Shown here: in pieces, positions 32,934-53,313 of the stretch
How positions within the stretch are numbered: the stretch's first letter is position 1
Layout: the number at the start of each line of letters is the position of its first letter
DNA from: Dokdonella sp.
GTDB lineage: Bacteria > Pseudomonadota > Gammaproteobacteria > Xanthomonadales > Rhodanobacteraceae
Reading direction: 5' to 3'
Assembly: GCA_024707225.1 (NCBI GenBank)
Contig: JANQAE010000004.1
Location: 620,001-684,000, forward strand
Length of the DNA: 64,000 bases
Position numbers and translations under genes: made by a program
The notes under the pieces: generated by a model
Told to the model about the DNA's origin: nothing
The model's input: only the letters and a program-made list of their open reading frames with translations
Database searches by the model: none

Positions 32934-34502
32934 ATGTCCGTCCCACTGCGCCTGCTGTGCCTGCTGCTCGCATCGATGGCCGATGCGCACGCCGCCACGT
33001 TCATCGTCACCCGCGGCGACGACCCAGTGCCCGGCGTCTGTGCCAGCGGCGACTGCTCGCTGCGCGAGGCGCTCGACGCGGCCGTCGCCACGCCTGGCGA
33101 GGACACGATCGTCCTCGGTGCCGGCCAGTACACGGTCACGCGTGGCGCGCTGCCGGTCTACGGCACGGTGCTGATCCGGGGCCACGGCACTGCCGCGACG
33201 CGCATCGTCGGCGTCGGCGATTTCGATCTGCTCGCGGTCACGCCGTTCGGGGCGCTGGCGCTGGAGACGATGACGCTGGCCTCGCAGCGGCAGGCGGTCA
33301 CGCTCGACAGCGGATCGCTGGTGCTGCGCTACGTCGAGGCGCCGAGCGGTGGCGGCGGAATCTCCGGCGCGTCCGGCAGCGGCCCGGCCTCGGTGCGCGT
33401 CGAGCACGCGGTGCTCGGCGATCCGCTCGCCTGCGAATGCGGCGCCGGGTCGATGCACGTCAGCGACAGTACGCTCGACAGCGTGCTGGTCTTCAACGGC
33501 GGCGCCGATCTCGTGCTCGATCGCGTCGAGGTGGCCGGTCCGTCGGCCGTGCCGTACGGCATCGCGTTCACGAGCAGCGGCACCGCGACGATCCGCGACA
33601 GCGTGATCCGCGACCAGGCCGCTCCGCTGGTACTGGGCGGCACCGGCGGCGACGTGCGGATCGCCCGCACGCGCTTCATCGGCAACACCGGTCCGCTCTA
33701 CGGCAGCCGCGACGGCATGGTCTGGATGGAGGACGTCGAGTTCCGTGACAACGTGGTCGACGACGACAGCCTCGCCGCCGGCCTGCCGTCGGTTCTGCTG
33801 GCGCAGGACCAGATCGCCTGGCGCATCTCGCGCGCGCTGTTCACCGGCAATCGCGGCGGCGGCGGCTCGGCTGCCAACCGGATCGGATCGACCGTGCGCG
33901 TGCTCGCCGGCGGCAACGTCACGATGAGCGACGTCACGTTCTACGACGACACCTTCCGCAGCGGCGTCGTCAACGGCGTCGGTCATGCGATCGGCGTCGA
34001 CACCGCCGGCGAGGCCGCGATCCTCTGGCTGTTCAACGCGACGCTGCGGATCGGCCCTGCGGTGCCGTCCAACGCGGTCGCCTCGCTGATCGCGGTACGC
34101 GGCGGCGCCGCCAACGTGCGCGTCTTCAACAGCATCCTGCACGGCAACTGCGCGTTCGCGACCGGAGCGGCGATGTTCCAGGCCGAGGGCGACATCGAGT
34201 CGCCCGGCAACAGCTGTCAGCTGCCAGCCGCCACCAACAGCGTATCGGTCGCGCCGATCGATCTGTTTCTCGGCTCCTTGGCCGACAACGGCGGCTTCAC
34301 GCGGACGTTCCTGCCGACGCGCTACAGCCCTGCGGTGGACCACGGCTCGACGACCTGGTGCAACGTCGCCGGCGCGATCTTCTCGCGCGTGGACCAGCGC
34401 CGCTTCGTGCGGCCGGCCGGAGCGGGCTGCGACAGCGGCGCGGCCGAGTTCGATTCGATATCCGACCTGATCTACGCGAACGGAGCCGACGTGGCCCCCT
34501 GA
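32934..34502 (+). CDS. Secreted CSLREA-domain / parallel beta-helix protein
   Basis: Signal peptide; ATFIVTRGDDPVPGVCASGDCSLREALDAA (CSLREA motif); beta-helix repeats; C-terminus SDLIYANGADVAP. Confidence 0.85.
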   Translation: MSVPLRLLCLLLASMADAHAATFIVTRGDDPVPGVCASGDCSLREALDAAVATPGEDTIVLGAGQYTVTRGALPVYGTVLIRGHGTAATRIVGVGDFDLLAVTPFGALALETMTLASQRQAVTLDSGSLVLRYVEAPSGGGGISGASGSGPASVRVEHAVLGDPLACECGAGSMHVSDSTLDSVLVFNGGADLVLDRVEVAGPSAVPYGIAFTSSGTATIRDSVIRDQAAPLVLGGTGGDVRIARTRFIGNTGPLYGSRDGMVWMEDVEFRDNVVDDDSLAAGLPSVLLAQDQIAWRISRALFTGNRGGGGSAANRIGSTVRVLAGGNVTMSDVTFYDDTFRSGVVNGVGHAIGVDTAGEAAILWLFNATLRIGPAVPSNAVASLIAVRGGAANVRVFNSILHGNCAFATGAAMFQAEGDIESPGNSCQLPAATNSVSVAPIDLFLGSLADNGGFTRTFLPTRYSPAVDHGSTTWCNVAGAIFSRVDQRRFVRPAGAGCDSGAAEFDSISDLIYANGADVAP

Positions 34503-35965: not shown

Positions 35966-38086
35966 ATGAGATCGAATTCGTCGAACCAATACCCGTCCTG
36001 CGGCCGTTCGGCCACTTTGGGATTGAGAATCCTCCTCGCGCTAGCATGCTCGGTCGCCGGTTCCGTCGCCGACAAGGCCGACGCCTATGTCCCGCCGCCG
36101 CGCTCCTTGGCGCCGCCAATGGGATGGAATACCTGGTATAGCGTCAACGTACACATCGATGCGCAACTCATTGCCGACATGGCAGACGCGCTGGTCACGA
36201 GCGGCCTGAGAGATCTCGGCTACAAGCAAGTGGGCATGGATGCCGGCTGGTGGATGGCCAATGCAGGCCCGGCCCGTGACGTCAGCGGCAACATCATCGT
36301 CAATCCGGGGTTCTTCGCCGGAACGAGTTTCACCACGATGAAGGACCTGGCCGACTACGTGCACGGCAAGGGCCTCACCTTGGGAATCTATACCGATACG
36401 GGCCCCGAAGGCTGCGCGGGACATAACGGAAGCGGCGGGTACGAAGTGCAGGATGCGGCCCTGTTCGCAAGCTGGGGCATCGACCATGTGAAGGTCGATC
36501 ATTGCGGATCCAATATCAGCGGCCGGACGACCGAGCAGTCCTATCGGGTCTGGCGCGATGCCATCAGTCTCACTGGTCGCGCGATCACGCTGAACGTTTG
36601 CAATTGGGGACAGGAATCGCCGTGGACCTGGGGACCGGGTCTTGGCCAATCCTGGCGATCGGGCCACGACATATGGGCCAGCAACCCCTTCGCCTGGAAT
36701 GATGTCGTGGTCAACTTTGATGCCAACTACCATCCCGGCTCGTCGGGCCCCGGCGCATTCAATGATCCAGACTTCCTCATCATCGGCCCGCAGTTCGGTG
36801 GCGGCCTGTCCGTCAACGAGGAGCAGTCCTACTTTGGCATGTGGGCCATCTCCGCCGCTCCTTTGATCCTGACCGCGGATATCCGAAGCATCGGTCCGGC
36901 GACGATGGCGATCGTCGGCAACCCGGAGGTCATCGCAGTCAACCAGGACGCCGCCTACATGCAAGGCGTCCTGGTGTCGAAGATCGGCGACCTGGAGGTC
37001 TATTCCAAGCCGCTGGCCGCGACCGGCGAACGCGCTGTTCTGCTGCTCAATCGCGGTGCCACGGCCGCGACGATCACGGCGAACTGGTCCGACATCGGCG
37101 TTTCTGCCGGATCGGCGACGGTGCGCGATCTGTACGCGCGAACGAATCTCGGCACCTTCGTCAATAGCTATACCTCACCGTTGATTCCGCCGCACGGCAG
37201 CATGATGATCAAGGTGAGCGGTAGCGCCTCGACCCCACTCTATGCCGCGACATCGGTCGTCGCTGCCGGATTCGAGGCATCGAAAGCGATGGACGGCAGC
37301 CCATCGACGATGTGGCACTCGTCCTGGGAGGACCGTTATTACTTTCCGCAGTATGTTCACATCGATCTCGGTGCGAACCGCATCGTCAACCAGGTCAAGT
37401 ATCTGCCTCGTCAAGATCAGCTCTCGGATCCCGTTGGTGGCAAGAACGGCGTCATCACCGACTACCGGATCGAGACGCGTGTGGCGGGCGGCGATTGGGT
37501 CGGCGTGGGAAGTGGCTCTTGGCCGATCGACATGACCGAGAAACACGCGTTCTTTCCCCCGCGCCAAGCGCGGTTCATCCGGCTCGTCGCACTTTCCGGA
37601 TTTAACGGATTCGCATCGGCTGCCGAGCTCTCCGCCGACCATCTCGGCCCCTCGACCGGCACCCTGACGGCGCCCGTATCCGCTTTCGCAAGTTCGGTAT
37701 ACGCGACGGGCTTCGAGGCGTCGAAGGCGATCGATGGAAACCTTTCGACGATGTGGCACTCCTCGGTCATGCAGCAGTGGACGTATCCACAGCACGTCAC
37801 GCTTGACCTCGGATCGATCAAAACGGTGAAGTCGCTGACCTATGTGCCTCGCAAAGACCAGATTACGGATCTGGCCGGCAGGAACGGCGTGATCAAGTCC
37901 TACAATCTCCGGCTGAGCCTGGACGGATGGACCTATGTCTCCGCCGGATCCGGCAGCTGGCCGGTCGATATGGCGCAGAAGACGATCATCATCAGTGACA
38001 CCTCGGCTCGCTACGTCCGGCTGGAAGCGTCGGACGGGCACAACGGGCTGGTCAGTGCTGCTGAGGTCTGGGTCGGGGTGCAGTAG
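35966..38086 (+). CDS. Secreted GH27-family alpha-galactosidase with two C-terminal F5/8 type C (CBM32-like) domains
   Basis: PPMGWNTWYSVNVHIDAQLIADMADALVTSGLRDLGYKQVGMDAGWW, HVKVDHCGS (nucleophile region), FNDPDFLIIG, ISAAPLILTADIR. Two homologous units beginning GFEASKAMDGSPSTMWHSS and GFEASKAIDGNLSTMWHSS. Confidence 0.92.
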   Translation: MRSNSSNQYPSCGRSATLGLRILLALACSVAGSVADKADAYVPPPRSLAPPMGWNTWYSVNVHIDAQLIADMADALVTSGLRDLGYKQVGMDAGWWMANAGPARDVSGNIIVNPGFFAGTSFTTMKDLADYVHGKGLTLGIYTDTGPEGCAGHNGSGGYEVQDAALFASWGIDHVKVDHCGSNISGRTTEQSYRVWRDAISLTGRAITLNVCNWGQESPWTWGPGLGQSWRSGHDIWASNPFAWNDVVVNFDANYHPGSSGPGAFNDPDFLIIGPQFGGGLSVNEEQSYFGMWAISAAPLILTADIRSIGPATMAIVGNPEVIAVNQDAAYMQGVLVSKIGDLEVYSKPLAATGERAVLLLNRGATAATITANWSDIGVSAGSATVRDLYARTNLGTFVNSYTSPLIPPHGSMMIKVSGSASTPLYAATSVVAAGFEASKAMDGSPSTMWHSSWEDRYYFPQYVHIDLGANRIVNQVKYLPRQDQLSDPVGGKNGVITDYRIETRVAGGDWVGVGSGSWPIDMTEKHAFFPPRQARFIRLVALSGFNGFASAAELSADHLGPSTGTLTAPVSAFASSVYATGFEASKAIDGNLSTMWHSSVMQQWTYPQHVTLDLGSIKTVKSLTYVPRKDQITDLAGRNGVIKSYNLRLSLDGWTYVSAGSGSWPVDMAQKTIIISDTSARYVRLEASDGHNGLVSAAEVWVGVQ

Positions 38087-38630: not shown

Positions 38631-39479
38631 ATGATTCCCGAGCTGCCGCCGCCCCAGTCCGTCACGCTGGCCGCCGTCATCGGCGCACTGCGTGCCGACG
38701 CCCGCATCGAGGCGATTCTCGGCGCGGGCTCGCTGCTCGATGGTGCATTCGATGCGCACTCGGACCTCGACCTCGTCGTCGTGGTCGGCGCCGCTGCCCA
38801 TGCGGACGTCATGGCAGCGCGACGGCCGATCGCCGAGCGCGCCGGATCGCTGCTCGCCGCCTTCACCGGCGAGCACGTCGGCGAGCCGCGCCTGCTGATC
38901 TGCCTGTACGGCCCGCCGCTGGTGCACGTCGACCTGAAGTTCGTCACCGTCGATGCACTCGATGCGATGGTCGAGCGGCCGCGCCTGCTGTGGGCACGCG
39001 AACCGGCCGCGATCGCCGAGCGCCTCGACGCCGCCCGGATCGCGTGGCCCGACCGCGATCCGCAGTGGTTCGAGGACCGGGCCTGGATCTGGCTGCACTA
39101 CGGCGCGACCAAGGCCGCGCGCGGCGAGCTGTTCGAGGCGATCGGCCTGCTCGCCTTCTTCCGCGAGCAGATCCTCGGCCCGATGCTGCATCGGAACGCC
39201 GGCCGCCGGCAGCGCGGCGTGCGCCGCATCGAATCGCCCGCGACCCTCGCCGCGCTGACCGAGACGCTGGCCGGGCATGACCGTAGTGCGGTCAAGGCCG
39301 CACTGGCGGCGTCGGCCGCGCTGTATCTGCAGCTGCGCGCAGATGAGCCGCCGCCACGGCCCGTGTCACGGATGCCCGATGCGCTGTCGCGCTTCTGGGC
39401 GCAGGATCAAACCGCTCCGGAGGACGAGTCGACGCTCAAGGTCGGCGACGACTGCCGGAGCGAGAACCATTGTGGATGA
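38631..39479 (+). CDS. Nucleotidyltransferase-domain protein (pol-beta superfamily)
   Basis: ILGAGSLLDGAFDAHSDLDLVVVV (GS...SDLDL NTase motif). Confidence 0.75.
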   Translation: MIPELPPPQSVTLAAVIGALRADARIEAILGAGSLLDGAFDAHSDLDLVVVVGAAAHADVMAARRPIAERAGSLLAAFTGEHVGEPRLLICLYGPPLVHVDLKFVTVDALDAMVERPRLLWAREPAAIAERLDAARIAWPDRDPQWFEDRAWIWLHYGATKAARGELFEAIGLLAFFREQILGPMLHRNAGRRQRGVRRIESPATLAALTETLAGHDRSAVKAALAASAALYLQLRADEPPPRPVSRMPDALSRFWAQDQTAPEDESTLKVGDDCRSENHCG

Positions 39480-40299
39480 CGGCCGTCGTCAGGATGGTGA
39501 TGACCAGGACCGCTATCGTGATGGCATCCTTCCTCTTTTCTATTTTCCCAACGAAAGAATCGGGGGAACGCTCCGGAAATAGAGCGATGCCAACCGCAAA
39601 CACGATCGAGACGGCCAGCATCGACAGTAGAGCGTAGTACGCGAAGTCGATCAGCTTCGCGCGCTCCCTGATATTGGACAGGGCCCTTCCTACGACGCCT
39701 TTCGAACTGAACTGCTTCGCCTGGTCGCGTGCCTCCCGGTAGGCAGACTCGCCCTTCGAGTTCTTGTACTCGTGCAGATACTTGACGATCTTGCTGTTGA
39801 CCTCGTGCGAGTACCGGCCATTGTCCTGAAGAAGCTGCTTGGTCTCGGACTTGTGCCCGACCTTCCGTGTCGGAGTTTCGGTCGAATGCAGGATCAGGGT
39901 CGCCATCCCTTTGTCGGAGCGAATGCAGACATCGCTATCGGACGAATTGTAGAACGTCAGTATCAGGCGCCCGTTCCACAACGGGTCGACGGTGACCGAG
40001 TTCACCAGGATGCCTTTCGCGCTGATCCCCGAACGCGCATGGACCGTGCCGATCACGCTACCGGTCAGATAGATTCTCTCGAGCGTCACGACCACGACGG
40101 ATGCGCGCGCCTTGATCCTGACCTCCACCATCTGCGAAGAGTCGGCCCCCTTGGGATAGAGCTCTTCCGCGGTGACGGGGTTGATGACAAACCCGATCCT
40201 CAAGTCATAGCCCAAAGGACTCAGTTGATCCTGGTCCCAGGGCTCGATCACGAAACGCTTCTGCCGGTGCTTCTCCAAATCAACGCTCGAGAACGCCAC
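39436..40299 (-). CDS. dCTP deaminase/dUTPase-superfamily domain protein with two C-terminal TM helices
   Basis: LSPLGYDLRIG, GTVHARSGISAKGILVNSVTVDPLWNGRLILTFYNSSDSDVCIRSDKGMATLIL (Dcd-like core); TM-like IDFAYYALLSMLAVSIVFAVGIALF and AITIAVLVITILTTAVI. GTG start with GGAGG RBS. Confidence 0.8.
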   Translation of the reverse strand: MAFSSVDLEKHRQKRFVIEPWDQDQLSPLGYDLRIGFVINPVTAEELYPKGADSSQMVEVRIKARASVVVVTLERIYLTGSVIGTVHARSGISAKGILVNSVTVDPLWNGRLILTFYNSSDSDVCIRSDKGMATLILHSTETPTRKVGHKSETKQLLQDNGRYSHEVNSKIVKYLHEYKNSKGESAYREARDQAKQFSSKGVVGRALSNIRERAKLIDFAYYALLSMLAVSIVFAVGIALFPERSPDSFVGKIEKRKDAITIAVLVITILTTAVIHNGSRSGSRRRP

Positions 40300-40463
40300 T
40301 TTCGCCTCCGATTCCCTTCCAGCGACCGGCTCTCCTTCCTGGCGAAGAAGAGCACCCCTTGATTGCCTGCCCGGAGCCGGTCATTGCAACCAGCTTCACG
40401 AACGCTAGCAAAATTCCGAAGCGCAGACAAAAAGCAAGCCGGCCCAGCATTCCGATCGTCCAG

Positions 40464-42608
40464 ATGCGACCGATTCCATGCCGCTTCGCGCGATGTCTCC
40501 TGTTCGGACCGTTGTGCGCTTACGTCCTCGTCAACCCCATTCCGAGGACGTCCGCCGTGCCGCACCGCCCTGCTTCCCGCCGTTTCTGGCGACATCTGTC
40601 CTGGCTCGCCCTGCTGCTGGTGCCGGCTGCCGAGGCGGCCACACGCGTCTGGCCTTCGGCGATCTGTAATGCCACCTTGCAGGCCTGCATCGACGGCGCC
40701 GCCGTGGGCGACCGGGTCGAGATCGACTGGCTGGCGCCGATCGAGGAGGACATCACGCTGAGTCGCGGCCTGACGCTGACGGCCGCGGGTCAGCGCGTCC
40801 GCTTCGCCGGTGGCCGCTCGGTGACCGGCCTGCTCGGCAGCGGCGGCAGCGGCGCGGTGACGATCAGCCGCATCGACATCACCGATGCCGAGCTCAGTCT
40901 GCGCAAGGCCGGTGCGGGCCTGGCGATCTTCGTCGTCGACGACGTCGGGGTCGAGCGCAGCCCGGCCGGCGGCAACGGCCGGATCGCGGTGACCGCCGAC
41001 AGCGGCGGTACCGTCAGCGCCACGCTCAACCGCAATCGCGTGCGCGGCCTGCCAGCGTCGCTCAACGACGGTCTGCTGCAGCTGACCGCCAGCGGCGGTT
41101 CGCTGGACGCCGTGGTGACCAGCAATACGCTGACGCGCAACGCGGACCCGCTGGCGCAAGGGGCGGCGGTATTCGTCGACGTCCATGCGATCGGCGGCCA
41201 GCCCGGTGAGGCGACGGTACGCGTGCAGGGCAATACCGCCGAAGGCGCGTTCGGACGCGGCGCCTACACGTTCAGCGAAGGTCTGTTCAGCAGCACGGCC
41301 TCGACCTTGCGGGTGTTCGCGATCAGCAACACGGCCACCGGCAGCGCACCGGCGGCCAGCACCGGCATCAGCCTGATCGCCGGCAGCGGCACGGTCGATG
41401 CCTACGTCTTCAACAACACGCTGGCCGGCGTGCGCAACGGCATCTCGGCGACCGTATGGGACTCGGGCACTGCCGCGGCGCGCATCAACGGCTCGATCCG
41501 CAACAATCTGATCCAGGCGTCCGAGCGCGGCCTGATCGCGGGCGCCACGCTGACGCCCTCGCTCGACAACGATTACAACCTGATCGAAGCGCCAGCCAAT
41601 CAGGCAACGCCTGGCCCCAACACGCTGGCCGGCCCGGCGCGGCTGGTCGCCCGCCACGCACCCCGGCTGCGGCCCGGCTCACCGGCGATCGACGCCGGCG
41701 ACGGTATCGGCCTGGCCAATATGATCGTCGATGCCGGCCTGCCGCCGCTCGACGCGGACGGCCTGCGCCGCGTCAAGGGCAGTCGCGTCGACGTCGGAGC
41801 CTATGAATGGGGTGATCTGGGCGTGCGCCATGCTGCGACGCTCGACAACATCCAGAGCAACTGGTCCCTGATCGGCGCCCCGCTCGGCACGCCGTTCACA
41901 GCGGAACTGCAGGCCACGCGCGTCTACAACTACGGCGCACGCACGGTCGCGCCGTTCGGCCTGTACTACACGGCCGGCACCTGGACGCTCTACAACGAGT
42001 CGGTCGCGCCGGTCCTGCCGGGCCTGCTCTGGAACGTGTGGTCACCGGCGGGCGGCGCGGGGCGTTTCGTGCACACGACCACGCCGGCCAACACCACGGC
42101 CTGGCGCACGCAGATCGACAACGGCGCGGCCAACGGCCAGCCGGAGCGGATCATGCTGGTCGCGCACAACTGGACGGCCTCACCGCTGCCGAACTACGTC
42201 GACCATCCGCTCGGCGTCTACTACGCCGGATCCGGTGCCGCCGGGCGCTGGCACATCGCCAATCTCGACCAGGTCGCGCTGCCGCTGAGCTCGGCATTCA
42301 ACGTCTACTCCCAGCCGCCGAGCCCGAACGCGTTCCGCGTCGCCGCGATACCGGGCCGGCAGCTCGTCGTGCTCGATCATCCGCTGCTCAACGGCATCCG
42401 CTGCGCGACTGCGCAGGTCACGCGCGTCACCTCGGCCACGAATCCGGGCCCGGCCGGCGGTTTCGACCTGGATTACGGCCTCGTCGACGGCCGCTGGGGC
42501 ATCTTCTCGCCGACGCCGTGGCCGGCCGACACCGCATTCAACGTCGTCGTCGATCCGGCCCAGGTGTTCGAATGCACGGACCGGATCCATGCGGACGACT
42601 TCGAATGA
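40464..42608 (+). CDS. Secreted beta-helix / choice-of-anchor Q-like protein with C-terminal DRIHADDFE
   Basis: LRPGSPAIDAGDG...DVGAYEWG; a second C-terminal module with VYNYGARTVAPFGLYYTAGTWTLYNES...GVYYAGSGAAGRWHIANLD repeats. Confidence 0.8.
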   Translation: MRPIPCRFARCLLFGPLCAYVLVNPIPRTSAVPHRPASRRFWRHLSWLALLLVPAAEAATRVWPSAICNATLQACIDGAAVGDRVEIDWLAPIEEDITLSRGLTLTAAGQRVRFAGGRSVTGLLGSGGSGAVTISRIDITDAELSLRKAGAGLAIFVVDDVGVERSPAGGNGRIAVTADSGGTVSATLNRNRVRGLPASLNDGLLQLTASGGSLDAVVTSNTLTRNADPLAQGAAVFVDVHAIGGQPGEATVRVQGNTAEGAFGRGAYTFSEGLFSSTASTLRVFAISNTATGSAPAASTGISLIAGSGTVDAYVFNNTLAGVRNGISATVWDSGTAAARINGSIRNNLIQASERGLIAGATLTPSLDNDYNLIEAPANQATPGPNTLAGPARLVARHAPRLRPGSPAIDAGDGIGLANMIVDAGLPPLDADGLRRVKGSRVDVGAYEWGDLGVRHAATLDNIQSNWSLIGAPLGTPFTAELQATRVYNYGARTVAPFGLYYTAGTWTLYNESVAPVLPGLLWNVWSPAGGAGRFVHTTTPANTTAWRTQIDNGAANGQPERIMLVAHNWTASPLPNYVDHPLGVYYAGSGAAGRWHIANLDQVALPLSSAFNVYSQPPSPNAFRVAAIPGRQLVVLDHPLLNGIRCATAQVTRVTSATNPGPAGGFDLDYGLVDGRWGIFSPTPWPADTAFNVVVDPAQVFECTDRIHADDFE

Positions 42609-42633
42609 GCCGGTCGCGCGCGGCGCGTTCGGA

Positions 42634-48068: not shown

Positions 48069-48980
48069 TCAGGCGGCGGCCGGCGCGGCATGGTTCTTGG
48101 CAAGGAAGCCGTTGACCGCGCGGTCGAGGCTGACCGGCATGCACTGCACCGAGCGCGCGCCGCAGCCGCGCAGGAAGTCGCCGAAGGTTTCGTCCTGGTC
48201 GAGCACCAGGTAGTGATGCAGGCCGTCCAGGCGCTGCAGTTGCAGCAGGCCCGGCACGCCGGCCGGCTGCGGCCCCTTGAACGGCACGTCGGCGACCCAG
48301 TGGGTGACGCGCGCGCAGAAGTCCTCCGGCGCGGACATATGGGCGAGGCGGCCGTGCTCGAGAATCACGAGATTGTCGGCGACGCGCTCGATCTCCTCCA
48401 TCTGGTGCGAGCAGTAGATCACCGTGCAGCGCGCCGCGGCGCTCGAATACATCAGCGATTCGAGGAACGCGCGCTTGGCGACCACGTCGAGCCCGAGCGT
48501 CGGCTCGTCGAGCACCAGCAGCTCCGGCGACTGCGCCAGGGCCAGCGCCAGGTTGAGGCCGGCGCGCTCGCCGCGCGAGAGCTGGCCGACCCTCTGCTCG
48601 GGCAGCACGTGATAGTGGCCGATCACCTCGGCGAAGGCGCCTTCGTTCCAACGCGCGTAGAGCCGGCGCTGCATGCGCACGACCGCCTCGACGCGGACCC
48701 AGGCCGGCAGCGTGTGCTCCTCGTTGACGAAGCCGATGCGGCCACGATCGGCCGGCGTCAGGCAGCGGCTGTCGCGGCCGAGGATGCACGCGCTGCCGGC
48801 GGTCGGCGGCGTGAAGCCGAGCAGCACGCGGAACAGCGTCGACTTGCCGGCGCCGTTGGCGCCGACGATCGCGTGGATGCGTCCGCGCGGAATCGCCAGA
48901 TCCAGGCCGTCGAGCGCCCACTTGCGCCCGTAGCGCTTGCGCAGCGCCGTGGTTTCGATCACGTATTCGGATTCGGACAT
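48069..48980 (-). CDS. ABC transporter ATP-binding protein
   Basis: Walker A GANGAGKST, signature LSRGERAGLNLALAL, Walker B LLVLDEPTLGLD, H-loop IYCSHQ. Confidence 0.92.
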   Translation of the reverse strand: MSESEYVIETTALRKRYGRKWALDGLDLAIPRGRIHAIVGANGAGKSTLFRVLLGFTPPTAGSACILGRDSRCLTPADRGRIGFVNEEHTLPAWVRVEAVVRMQRRLYARWNEGAFAEVIGHYHVLPEQRVGQLSRGERAGLNLALALAQSPELLVLDEPTLGLDVVAKRAFLESLMYSSAAARCTVIYCSHQMEEIERVADNLVILEHGRLAHMSAPEDFCARVTHWVADVPFKGPQPAGVPGLLQLQRLDGLHHYLVLDQDETFGDFLRGCGARSVQCMPVSLDRAVNGFLAKNHAAPAAA

Positions 48981-49009
48981 GCCGATCGCTCCGTCGGTAA
49001 GGCTGTGGG

Positions 49010-49420
49010 TCAGGCGCGCTTGCGCGGCACCAGCGCGCCGAGCGCGCGCAGCAGGCGCGCCTGGATCGTCGCGGGCGGATAGTCGAGCGGGACGACCTCG
49101 TGCACGAAGCGGTCGACCGCCTCGTCCAGGCGCCGCGCGCGCTCGGCGTCGCTGAGGCGCTGGCGCGGCGGCGCGACGTAGAGGCCCAGTCCCTGGCGCG
49201 ACTCGAGCCAGCCCTCGGCGGTCAGCTCGGCATAGGCCTTGGCGACCGTGTTCGGATTGACGGTCAGCTGCTGGGCCAGGCCGCGTACGCTCGGCAGCTG
49301 GTCGCCGGGTTCGAGCTCGCCGGTGGCGATCTTCATGCGCACGGCCTCGACGATCTGGCGGCCGATCGGACGCGGATCGCCGGTGGCGATCTGGATCATC
49401 AACGCACGGGTCCGGGCCAT
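49010..49420 (-). CDS. GntR-family transcriptional regulator, YtrA-like
   Basis: PIGRQIVEAVRMKIATGELEPGDQLPSVRGLAQQLTVNPNTVAKAYAELTAEGWLESRQGLGLYVA; short effector domain, next to ABC genes. Confidence 0.9.
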   Translation of the reverse strand: MARTRALMIQIATGDPRPIGRQIVEAVRMKIATGELEPGDQLPSVRGLAQQLTVNPNTVAKAYAELTAEGWLESRQGLGLYVAPPRQRLSDAERARRLDEAVDRFVHEVVPLDYPPATIQARLLRALGALVPRKRA

Positions 49421-49442
49421 CGTCTCGCCTCGCTCGGTCAAC

Positions 49443-49463
49443 TGTACTAATTGAAATGGTACA
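49443..49463. promoter_or_regulatory. Putative YtrA-type operator TGTAC-N11-GTACA
   Basis: tgtactaattgaaatggtaca, 23 bp upstream of the GntR start codon; perfect 5-bp arms. Confidence 0.65.
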
Positions 49464-49613
49464 GCTAATACGGTGGCTGCTGTCAACTGCCCGGCGCAGC
49501 ACGGCCTCGGCTCGTCCCGTTGCGCTTGTCGACCCGCTCGGCGGCTGCGCAGGATCGACGCTCGCCGCGACGCCGCGTCGCACCGCCCGCCCGCTTCCGC
49601 CAGGAGATCGCCC

Positions 49614-50738
49614 ATGCCACTGGATCGACGTCGTTTTCTTCAACGCGGTGCCGCGCTGCTCGGCGCCGCCGCGCTCGCGCCGGTTCTGGCGCCGGCCCGC
49701 GCGGCCGGCCCGACGCTGGCGGTGCCGGTCGGCCGGCCGCTGCGCATCCTCGTGCTCGGCGGCACGCGCTATCTCGGGCCGGCGGTCGTCGAGTCCGCGC
49801 TGTCTCGCGGCCATGCGGTCACGCTGTTCAACCGCGGCAAGACCGCACCGCACCTGTTTCCCGGCGTGACACGTCTGCGCGGCAACCGCTATCCGGATCG
49901 CGACGGCGGCCTGTCCGCGCTCCAGGGCGGCCGCTGGGATCTGGTGATCGATCTGTGCGCGTACTACCCGCGCCTGGTCGAGGCCTCGGCGCGACTGCTC
50001 GCCGAGCGCACCGGCCGCTATCTGATGGTGTCGAGCATCAGCGTCTACCGCGACCTCAAGCGCGAGCACTCGGACGAGACCGCGCCGGTGCTGCCGCTGG
50101 CCGAGACGTTCGAGGAGCTGCCCGATCTGTACGAGAACGACTGGAAGACCTACGGCGGACGCAAGGCCGCCAACGAGGCGATCGTGCAGCGCGTGTTCGG
50201 CGAGCGCGCGACGATCCTGCGGCCGTGCTCGATCTGCGGCGGCGGCAACAATGACGGCAGCGGCGCCTACTGGCCGGCGCGCCTGCATCGCGGCGGCCGC
50301 GTGCTGCTGCCCGGCGACGGCAGCGATCCGACCCAGCTGATCGACGTGCGCGATCTGGCCGACTTCGCGGTGCTGGCCGGCGAGCGCGGCCTGGCCGGCG
50401 CCTACAACGTGGTCGGCCCGGCCGAACGGCTGACCACGCGCGACTACATCGCCGCGGCCGGCCGCGTCGTCGGCAGCCGCGCCGAGGTGGTCTGGAAAGG
50501 CGATTTTCCGCGCGAGATGTTCGGGCTGCCGCTGGTGCCGCCGTATTCGGCCGTGCCCGGCTTCGCGACGATGAGCAACGCCCGGGCGCGCGCGGCCGGG
50601 CTGCGCTTCCGTCCGCTCGAGGACACGCTGCGCAGCAACTGGCTGGACCATCGCGCGCAGCGCGGCGACGCGTTCGATTTCGCTGCGGCCGGCATCGGTC
50701 TCAGCGCCGAGCAGGAAGCGGCGCTGCTGAGCGGCTGA
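49614..50738 (+). CDS. NAD-dependent epimerase/dehydratase family protein with Tat-like signal
   Basis: MPLDRRRFLQRGAALLGAAALAPVLAPARA (twin-Arg); ILVLGGTRYLGPAVVESALSRGHAVTLFNRGKT (Rossmann); Y...K region. Confidence 0.85.
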   Translation: MPLDRRRFLQRGAALLGAAALAPVLAPARAAGPTLAVPVGRPLRILVLGGTRYLGPAVVESALSRGHAVTLFNRGKTAPHLFPGVTRLRGNRYPDRDGGLSALQGGRWDLVIDLCAYYPRLVEASARLLAERTGRYLMVSSISVYRDLKREHSDETAPVLPLAETFEELPDLYENDWKTYGGRKAANEAIVQRVFGERATILRPCSICGGGNNDGSGAYWPARLHRGGRVLLPGDGSDPTQLIDVRDLADFAVLAGERGLAGAYNVVGPAERLTTRDYIAAAGRVVGSRAEVVWKGDFPREMFGLPLVPPYSAVPGFATMSNARARAAGLRFRPLEDTLRSNWLDHRAQRGDAFDFAAAGIGLSAEQEAALLSG

Positions 50739-53313
50739 GCGCGGCCGCGACGTCGATCCGGCCGGATCCCTCCGCGATCGCCGCGCGCAGCCTCGCGGCA
50801 CGGCTGCGCTGGTCGGCACCGGCACGCGCATCGGGCCCGTCGACGCGGTCGAGCCAGGCGGACGCGGCGGCGCGGTCGCCGTTGCGCCGATGCCAGTCGG
50901 CCAGCGCGAGCGCCGTGTACGGCGCCTGCAGCAGGCCCGGATCGTCCTTGGCGGCCCAGCCGGCCGCGGCGGCGTCGAGCAAGGCGCGCGCCTCGGCGCC
51001 GGCCTCGCCGCGGTCGATCAGATTCTGCGCGAGCGCGGTCTTGGCCTGCAGCACGCGCGGATCGTCGGCCTCGTAGCGCACCGCGATCGCATCGTGCGCC
51101 TCGCGCAGCGCTATGCGTGCCGTCTCGTAGCGTCCGACACGCGCCTCGTGCTCGCCGATCGCGAGCAGCACCGCGGCGTACTCGCCGCTGTCGGCGCCGT
51201 TGAGGCGTGCCTGCGCCACGCGCGCGGCGTCCAGGCGCTGCCGCGCCTCGGCATGGCGGCCGGCCGCGTCGAGGATCGGCGCGAGGCGCAGCAGATACAG
51301 GGCCGCGAACGGGCCCTGCCCGCCTTCGAGCCGATCGGCCATCGCGAGGCTGGCCTCGGCCGTTTCGATCGCGCGCGCGTGCGCGCCGGCCTGGCCGAGC
51401 ACCTGCGCATAGCGGCTCATCCGCTGCGCGCGCGACAGCGAATCGCCCGGCGGCAGCTCGGCGATGCCGGCCTCGCAATCGGCGAGCGCGGCCGCGGCCT
51501 CGCCGCGCGCGGCGCGGATGAAGCACAGATTGTGCAAGGCCGCGCCGATCCGGTTGTCGCCGCCGCGCGGCAGCGCCTGGTTCATCGTCAGCGAGATCTG
51601 CGCGGCCTGCTGCGCGGCCGCCAGCTGCCCGCCGCGGTTCAGCGCCAGCGACAGCACCATCCAGGCGTTGGCGATCGCCTGCGAGCCGGGCGGCGTCAGG
51701 CGCTCGGCCAGGGCCAGCGAGTCGCGCGCCGCGCGCTCGGCGTCGCGCGCCGGGAACTCGCCGTTGGCCATGATGTTGGCGAGCGCCGACAGCGCGCGCG
51801 CGGCCGCCAGCGGCTGATCGACGGCCGGGTCGAGGTTGAGGTCGGCCGCCTCGCGCATCAGCGCGGCGGCGGTCGCGTTGGCGTTCATGTGGCGATAGGC
51901 GTTGCCGACCGCTTCGAGCAGGCGCGCACGGATCCGCGGCTGGTCGGCCAGCTCGGTCGCGATGCGCGCGGTGCCGGCGTCGAGCACGTCGCGCGCGCTC
52001 AGGTCCGCGCGCAGGCCGACGTGGAGATTGGAATCGGCCGCGGCGAACACCGAGACCAGGAATTCGGCGACGCGATCGGAGATCTGCGCCTGCAGTCGCG
52101 CCTCGTGCTCGGCCTGCAGCGTGCGCGCGGTGAAGCCGACTGCGGCAGTGGTCGCGATCAGCGCGGCCGCGATCGCCCAGCGGTTGCGCGTCAGATAGCG
52201 CTGCGCGCGGTAGCCCCACTGGCCGCGCCGCGCGAACACCGGCCGTGCGGCCAGATAGCGGCGCAGGTCCGCGGCCAGTTCGGCGACCGACGCGTAGCGC
52301 TGCGCCGGCTCGCGCCGCATCGCCTTGAGCACGATCGCGTCCAGATCGGCCGGCAGCCGCCCTCGCGCGCCGGGCGCGCGCGAGGGCGGCGGAAACGTGC
52401 CGGCGACGATCGCGTTGGCGCGCGTGAGCTCGGTGTCCAGATGATCGAACGGCCGTACACCGGCGACCAGCTCGTACAGCACGACGCCGAGCGAGTAGAC
52501 GTCGGTGGCGGTGCCGAGCGGCTGGCCCTGAATCTGCTCGGGACTCGCGTAGGCCGGCGTCATCGCGCGCTGCACGGTCGTGGCCGGTGCGAGGGCCGCA
52601 TCGCGGTCGAGCAGGCGCGCGATGCCGAAATCGAGCAGCTTGGGCACGCCGTCGGCGCCGACCAGCACGTTGGCCGGCTTCAGATCGCGATGGATCACCA
52701 GCTGCGCATGGGCGTACTCGACCGCGCCGCAGATCCGCACGAACAGCTCGATGCGCTCGCGCATCGGGCGCTCGCGCGCGGCGTTCCAGCGGTCCAGCGG
52801 CTGGCCGTCGACGACTTCCATCGCCAGGAACGGGTGGCCGTCGGCATCGACGCCGGCGTCGATCAGATGCGCGATGTTCGGATGCTGCAGCGAGGCCAGG
52901 ATGCGGCCCTCGGCGAGAAAGCGCGCCAGTTCGGCCGGGCTCGGCGCGTCCAGCGCGCGCAGACGCTTCAGCGCGACGCGCTGCTGTGGGCCGCCGTCGT
53001 CGCGCTCGGCCAGCCAGACCTGGCCCATGCCGCCGGCGCCGAGCCGCTCGAGCAGCCGGTAGCGATGCGGTGCGGCGGACTCGATGCGGGCCTGCGCGAA
53101 CAGCGCGCGCCCCGGATCGGCGAATCCGGCCAGCGCATCGTCGGCGCCCTCGTCCTCGGCCGCCGCGATCAGCCAGTCGACCTCGCGCCGCAGCGCCGCA
53201 TCCCCGCCGCAGGCCGCGGCCAGGCGGCCGGCGCGCTCGGCCGGCGGACCGTCGAGCAGATCGTGCGCGATCGCCTGCGCCCGCCGGTAGCGCTCGGCCG
53301 CCGGCTCGCTCAT
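50701..53313 (-). CDS. Membrane Ser/Thr protein kinase with C-terminal TPR region
   Basis: LGAGGMGQVWLA, VALKRL, VIHRDLKPANV, KLLDFGIARL; TM RWAIAAALIATTAAVGFTA; TPR-like C-terminus. Single intact ORF. Confidence 0.9.
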   Translation of the reverse strand: MSEPAAERYRRAQAIAHDLLDGPPAERAGRLAAACGGDAALRREVDWLIAAAEDEGADDALAGFADPGRALFAQARIESAAPHRYRLLERLGAGGMGQVWLAERDDGGPQQRVALKRLRALDAPSPAELARFLAEGRILASLQHPNIAHLIDAGVDADGHPFLAMEVVDGQPLDRWNAARERPMRERIELFVRICGAVEYAHAQLVIHRDLKPANVLVGADGVPKLLDFGIARLLDRDAALAPATTVQRAMTPAYASPEQIQGQPLGTATDVYSLGVVLYELVAGVRPFDHLDTELTRANAIVAGTFPPPSRAPGARGRLPADLDAIVLKAMRREPAQRYASVAELAADLRRYLAARPVFARRGQWGYRAQRYLTRNRWAIAAALIATTAAVGFTARTLQAEHEARLQAQISDRVAEFLVSVFAAADSNLHVGLRADLSARDVLDAGTARIATELADQPRIRARLLEAVGNAYRHMNANATAAALMREAADLNLDPAVDQPLAAARALSALANIMANGEFPARDAERAARDSLALAERLTPPGSQAIANAWMVLSLALNRGGQLAAAQQAAQISLTMNQALPRGGDNRIGAALHNLCFIRAARGEAAAALADCEAGIAELPPGDSLSRAQRMSRYAQVLGQAGAHARAIETAEASLAMADRLEGGQGPFAALYLLRLAPILDAAGRHAEARQRLDAARVAQARLNGADSGEYAAVLLAIGEHEARVGRYETARIALREAHDAIAVRYEADDPRVLQAKTALAQNLIDRGEAGAEARALLDAAAAGWAAKDDPGLLQAPYTALALADWHRRNGDRAAASAWLDRVDGPDARAGADQRSRAARLRAAIAEGSGRIDVAAALSRSAAPLPARR

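Follow-up and report, generated by a model that had tools for sequence, protein, structure and literature searches.

Analysis of the window, the whole 64-kb stretch of DNA studied here, revealed an acquired gene encoding P0001, a protein whose layout of a DCD/dUTPase-fold domain, a helical stalk and two C-terminal transmembrane (TM) helices was confirmed by family profiles, hydropathy and a structure model, and which has lost residues kept in the dCTP deaminases (Dcd) of this fold. P0001 apparently represents a known fold in an architecture undescribed in the literature searched, which yielded no account of any DCD/dUTPase-fold protein with a membrane anchor. We tentatively read it as a membrane-tethered sensor or effector of dU/dT nucleotides, possibly acting in phage defence; the fold, the loss of deaminase residues, the two TM helices and the acquired state are the demonstrated parts of this reading, and the function is what we infer.

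The open reading frame comprises 287 codons with a GTG start (Table 1). Pfam DCD (4.3e-12) and dUTPase (6.8e-08; score 32.8 vs a cut-off of 22) both matched above their curated cut-offs, and the AlphaFold model (mean pLDDT 81.5; DCD core mostly 85–95 with a single loop near 70) places a beta fold at residues 1–140, followed by helices up to residue 280. The TM helices were placed by hydropathy (KD) and are helical in the model as well, so that the predicted layout is that of a nucleotide-binding-type domain plus a TM hairpin. Both structural proposals of the initial annotation, a Dcd/dUTPase fold in the N-terminal part and two C-terminal TM helices, were hence borne out, the former by Pfam, AlphaFold and Foldseek. 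The GRY of the conserved segment that links domain and helices may be a counterpart of the Dcd GKYxGQ lid.

Table 1 Features of the P0001 gene and protein, the surrounding segment and the related plasmid gene pairs (window positions unless a locus is given).
Feature	Position	Strand	Basis
P0001 gene, 287-aa membrane-anchored DCD/dUTPase-fold protein (predicted)	39436..40299	-	ORF; Pfam DCD and dUTPase over cut-off; AlphaFold model
Shine-Dalgarno GGAGG, 5 nt before the GTG start	40305..40309	-	printed sequence
Residues 1-140, DCD/dUTPase beta fold	39880..40299	-	Pfam; AlphaFold; Foldseek E 3e-13 to dUTPase P45
Residues 88-96, ARSGISAKG, motif 2	40012..40038	-	alignments with Dcds
Ala94, at E. 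coli Dcd R115 position	40018-40020	-	alignments
Asp105 of VDPLWNG, equivalent to Dcd D128	39985..39987	-	alignments
Thr115, at position of deaminase catalytic Glu138	39955..39957	-	alignments
Residues 150-175, KSETKQLLQDNGRYSHEVNSKIVKYL, conserved segment between domain and helices	39775..39852	-	orthologue comparison
Residues 181-222, helical stalk	39634..39759	-	AlphaFold helix 182-240
TM helix 1, residues 223-241	39577..39633	-	KD 2.61; helix in AlphaFold model
TM helix 2, residues 259-277, then basic tail	39469..39525	-	KD 2.03; helix in AlphaFold model
Segment carrying the P0001 gene, without counterpart in congener G004 except ~274 unrelated bases	39387..40491		alignment
Membrane DCD-like gene plus dUTPase gene pairs on plasmids	L033:4929-6446; L034:4926-6407		

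R115, S111 and E138 have roles in Dcd, and dUTPase relies on a catalytic Asp. Using E. coli Dcd numbering taken from the chain alignment (residue 90 onward), P0001 was compared with 15 canonical Dcds and with three further membrane members, P0004 from a gammaproteobacterial metagenome-assembled genome (MAG) and P0002 and P0003 from Bacillaceae plasmids. Arg115, kept in every canonical enzyme, is Ala94 in P0001 and Ser in the other three, and Glu138, kept just as strictly (15/15), reads T, T, S and S in the four membrane members. The alignments thereby reproduced the Glu-to-Thr exchange reported in the initial annotation (E138 = Thr115). The second exchange reported there, from the Arg of AHRID to Thr, is present too (R126 = Thr103), but it was discarded as an active-site marker, since this position holds T, S, A, Y, W or R in genuine Dcds (AHT, AHS, AHA, AGY and AGW contexts) and the conserved Arg is R115. 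Equivalents of Dcd Ser111 and Asp128 are retained in P0001 as S90 and D105, the latter at what we take to be the position of the dUTPase catalytic Asp, and the Asp of the VDP motif is kept in all four membrane members. The Arg-Ser of motif 2 reads R89 S90 in P0001, with the Ser replaced in P0004, P0002 and P0003 (A, V and V). Titles of PDB entries among the structure matches indicate that E138 and H121 variants of Dcd have been studied.

Comparison with solved structures revealed that the nearest ones by both sequence and fold are the P45-type archaeal dUTPases 9ln3, 9ln0 and 8y1w (Foldseek E 3e-13 to 7e-13), with entry titles naming dUTPase P45 and a Thermococcus pacificus dUTPase with dUMP. 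These share with P0001 the spacing from motif 2 to VDP and the GYDLR, RS and VDPxW motifs, and their corresponding strand, LMLYN or LMLFN, likewise lacks the deaminase Glu. By analogy, loss of the Glu would rule out deamination and leave dUTP hydrolysis possible, because the nearest solved structures are dUTPases without this same residue; with D105 and ARSG also present, the earlier label "catalytically dead" went too far. The main rival to our reading is an active P45-type dUTPase with a membrane anchor, a membrane-located form of the enzyme clearing dUTP at, for example, replication or phage-injection sites. Apart from the structural matches and the retained Asp, it can draw on a Pyrococcus protein annotated as dCTP deaminase that proved to hydrolyse dUTP efficiently and to lack deaminase activity (PMC5122711). 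We nevertheless consider it unlikely: the P45 enzymes, which are soluble and about 156 aa long, keep the R115-type Arg that P0001 lacks while adding a stalk and two TM helices, the motif-2 Ser is replaced in the three other membrane members, and the host already has a dut gene, as do the plasmids, where a complete dUTPase is encoded by the very next gene and a second one would be redundant. Set against the canonical trimeric dUTPase (PF00692, TIGR00576), P0001 shares the fold, an ARSG-like motif 2 and the position of the catalytic Asp, but lacks the glycine-rich motif 5, has Trp for the motif-3 Tyr, is predicted to be membrane anchored and scores 31.9 bits, below the cut-off of 102.55.

The P0001 gene has a GC content of 0.579 vs a window mean of 0.716, a value matched or undercut by 0.13% of the 864-bp windows within the 64 kb. 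Window positions 38643–39386 and 40492–42619 align to congener G004 (L079 2862–3605 and 3880–6007), in which a nucleotidyltransferase-like ORF and a beta-helix gene adjoin and ~274 bases, instead of 1105, separate the matching stretches; a clear boundary is absent from the alignment at the insertion junction. Composition and alignment together confirmed the earlier impression of lower-GC, acquired DNA, and the gene is best described as foreign-looking and horizontally acquired. The host genome carries a separate canonical dcd (C1:1285472, Glu and Arg kept) and dut (C2:848742), which makes the P0001 gene an extra, sporadic one. It was found in none of 233 other genomes of the host's family, in none of 368 and 398 sampled genomes of the class and phylum, and in none of 368 genomes sampled from the MAG's class, which may overlap with the other sample; a scan of genome contigs with P0001 alone as query gave no match. 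Viral scans with three queries and searches of phage and plasmid proteins returned no close viral member, and the weak matches were mostly ordinary Dcds (L035, L036, L044, L045).

The neighbouring nucleotidyltransferase-like ORF (window 38631–39479, +) does show the 44-bp tail-to-tail overlap described in the initial annotation, although no Pfam family supports the assignment as a nucleotidyltransferase. Among 60 family genomes it occurs only in G004 (77% identity) and G036 (57%), and the overlap arises where the 3' end of the ORF runs into inserted DNA. A functional link between the two genes is unlikely, as the congener has the ORF, ending ~25 residues earlier, without the DCD gene, and the ORF is absent from the plasmid loci and from that of the MAG. 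An alpha-galactosidase gene with two F5/8 type C domains (window 35966–38086, +; GC 0.616), acquired-looking and also without an aligned counterpart in G004, marks 35.4–40.5 kb as a variable spot.

P0004 (L037:8001–9065) was the only clear orthologue found, with 41–43% full-length identity to P0001. Its AlphaFold model (mean pLDDT 74) contains the secondary-structure elements of P0001 plus a coiled tail, the ~80 extra C-terminal residues after TM helix 2 being predicted as long helices. Identity reaches 47–49% in the pocket-bearing core and in residues 141–180 (47.5%), vs 26% in the stalk and TM part, and the best-kept stretches are the pocket-side segments RFVIEPW, GYDLRIG and VTVDPxWNG together with segment 141–180. 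A coupler with a loose anchor would be expected to show such a pattern, but so would any anchored enzyme.

P0002 and P0003 likewise combine a DCD domain with two TM helices at the C-terminus and are 44–47% identical to each other, but only about 20–25% identical to P0001. Profile comparison of the P0001/P0004 pair with the P0002/P0003 pair gave 97.7% probability over 123 columns (2e-12), and a branch of the tree (94/94) sets all four membrane members apart, with long branches flagged, so that a common origin is allowed, short of proof. Immediately downstream of either plasmid gene is a dut gene, and its product contains the complete set of dUTPase motifs. On the Peribacillus plasmid, PDC-S25 is matched (3e-159) by a SIR2 gene that lies 30 bases upstream, and mad1 by an HTH gene; on the Priestia plasmid, which encodes P0002, the match is to BnzB (1e-65), from a gene some 1.9 kb upstream. 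The membrane DCD-like protein and its dUTPase are a candidate two-gene defence unit. A weak match of P0002 to PDC-S20 (0.0013) lies in the helical region and is likely helix similarity. PADLOC gave no match for P0001 or P0004, and among the genes tested in the window and around the MAG copy no defence gene was seen. As to the defence role put forward earlier, proximity to known or candidate defence genes is seen at the two distant plasmid loci and not at the P0001 gene itself; a survey of homologue neighbourhoods, which the initial annotation had called for, returned contexts that are not uniformly housekeeping.

In the sensor or effector reading, the cytosolic domain would be trimeric with inter-subunit pockets, like every member of the fold, and its ligand would be a nucleotide of the dU or dT type. 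Shifts in that pool, for example from phage DNA synthesis, could serve as the signal; the conserved segment 150–175 and the helical stalk would pass it on to the TM hairpins, bundled as six helices per trimer, and these would then alter the membrane. The reading gains support from the non-deaminase residues shared by all four membrane members and from the TM architecture kept in the MAG orthologue, and control by a dU ligand is plausible because the plasmid genes adjoin a dUTPase gene. Precedents add to this: Clover CloA is a defence protein that senses dTTP (PMC12265719), although as a soluble HD-type dGTPase it has an unrelated fold, and the nucleotide-gated membrane effectors Csx23 and Cap1 of type III CRISPR systems also join a soluble nucleotide-binding domain to a TM-helix pair. 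The latter likeness is one of layout only, as fold and ligand differ and neither CRISPR nor a cyclase adjoins the P0001 gene. Against a sensor or effector speak the retained ARSG and Asp105, which are more than a bare sensor needs, the missing PADLOC match and defence neighbours at the window and MAG loci, and the distance of the plasmid proteins, whose kinship with P0001 rests on long branches. If P0001 is a sensor, bacteria could read dUTP or dTTP at the membrane, another fold would join the immunity sensors, and the pairing with dUTPase on some plasmids would be explained. A bolder proposal, which appears doubtful at present, is a new class of membrane defence effectors: a DCD/dUTPase domain incapable of deamination would monitor the dU/dT pool and would open or disrupt the membrane, and in some lineages a partner dUTPase would set the ligand level.

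Somewhat less probable than an anchored dUTPase is a role at the membrane outside defence, in which P0001 would regulate nucleotide metabolism or DNA synthesis, for instance by binding dTTP or dUTP and recruiting a partner there: the lack of defence neighbours at the MAG and window copies suits it, as does the dTTP feedback binding known for this fold in Dcd (PDB titles 2j4q, 4a6a), but the distribution is too sporadic for core metabolism and the plasmid members sit in defence neighbourhoods. P0001 might also be an acquired paralogue that is decaying or neutral and lacks a selected role. This would agree with its singleton status in the family, the missing catalytic residues and its location next to a further acquired-looking gene in a variable stretch, yet we regard it as improbable given an intact frame with a good Shine-Dalgarno sequence, the full-length identity to a remote MAG copy with fold motifs held, and the same architecture on Bacillaceae plasmids. 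An active dCTP deaminase is very unlikely because Glu138 and Arg115 are both replaced, here and throughout the membrane members, and although P0001 has the DCD fold of E. coli Dcd (1xs1) and TIGR02274 is its best NCBIfam match, the 72.9 bits reached lie under the 92.8-bit cut-off.

Elsewhere in the window, an ABC-type ATPase (48069–50831) that resembles a transporter shows weak matches to mad3 and AriA through the ATPase domain. The gene at 40359–42608 (+) encodes a beta-helix-like protein with DUF7452 repeats, and a similar right-handed beta-helix protein is encoded at 32934–34502.
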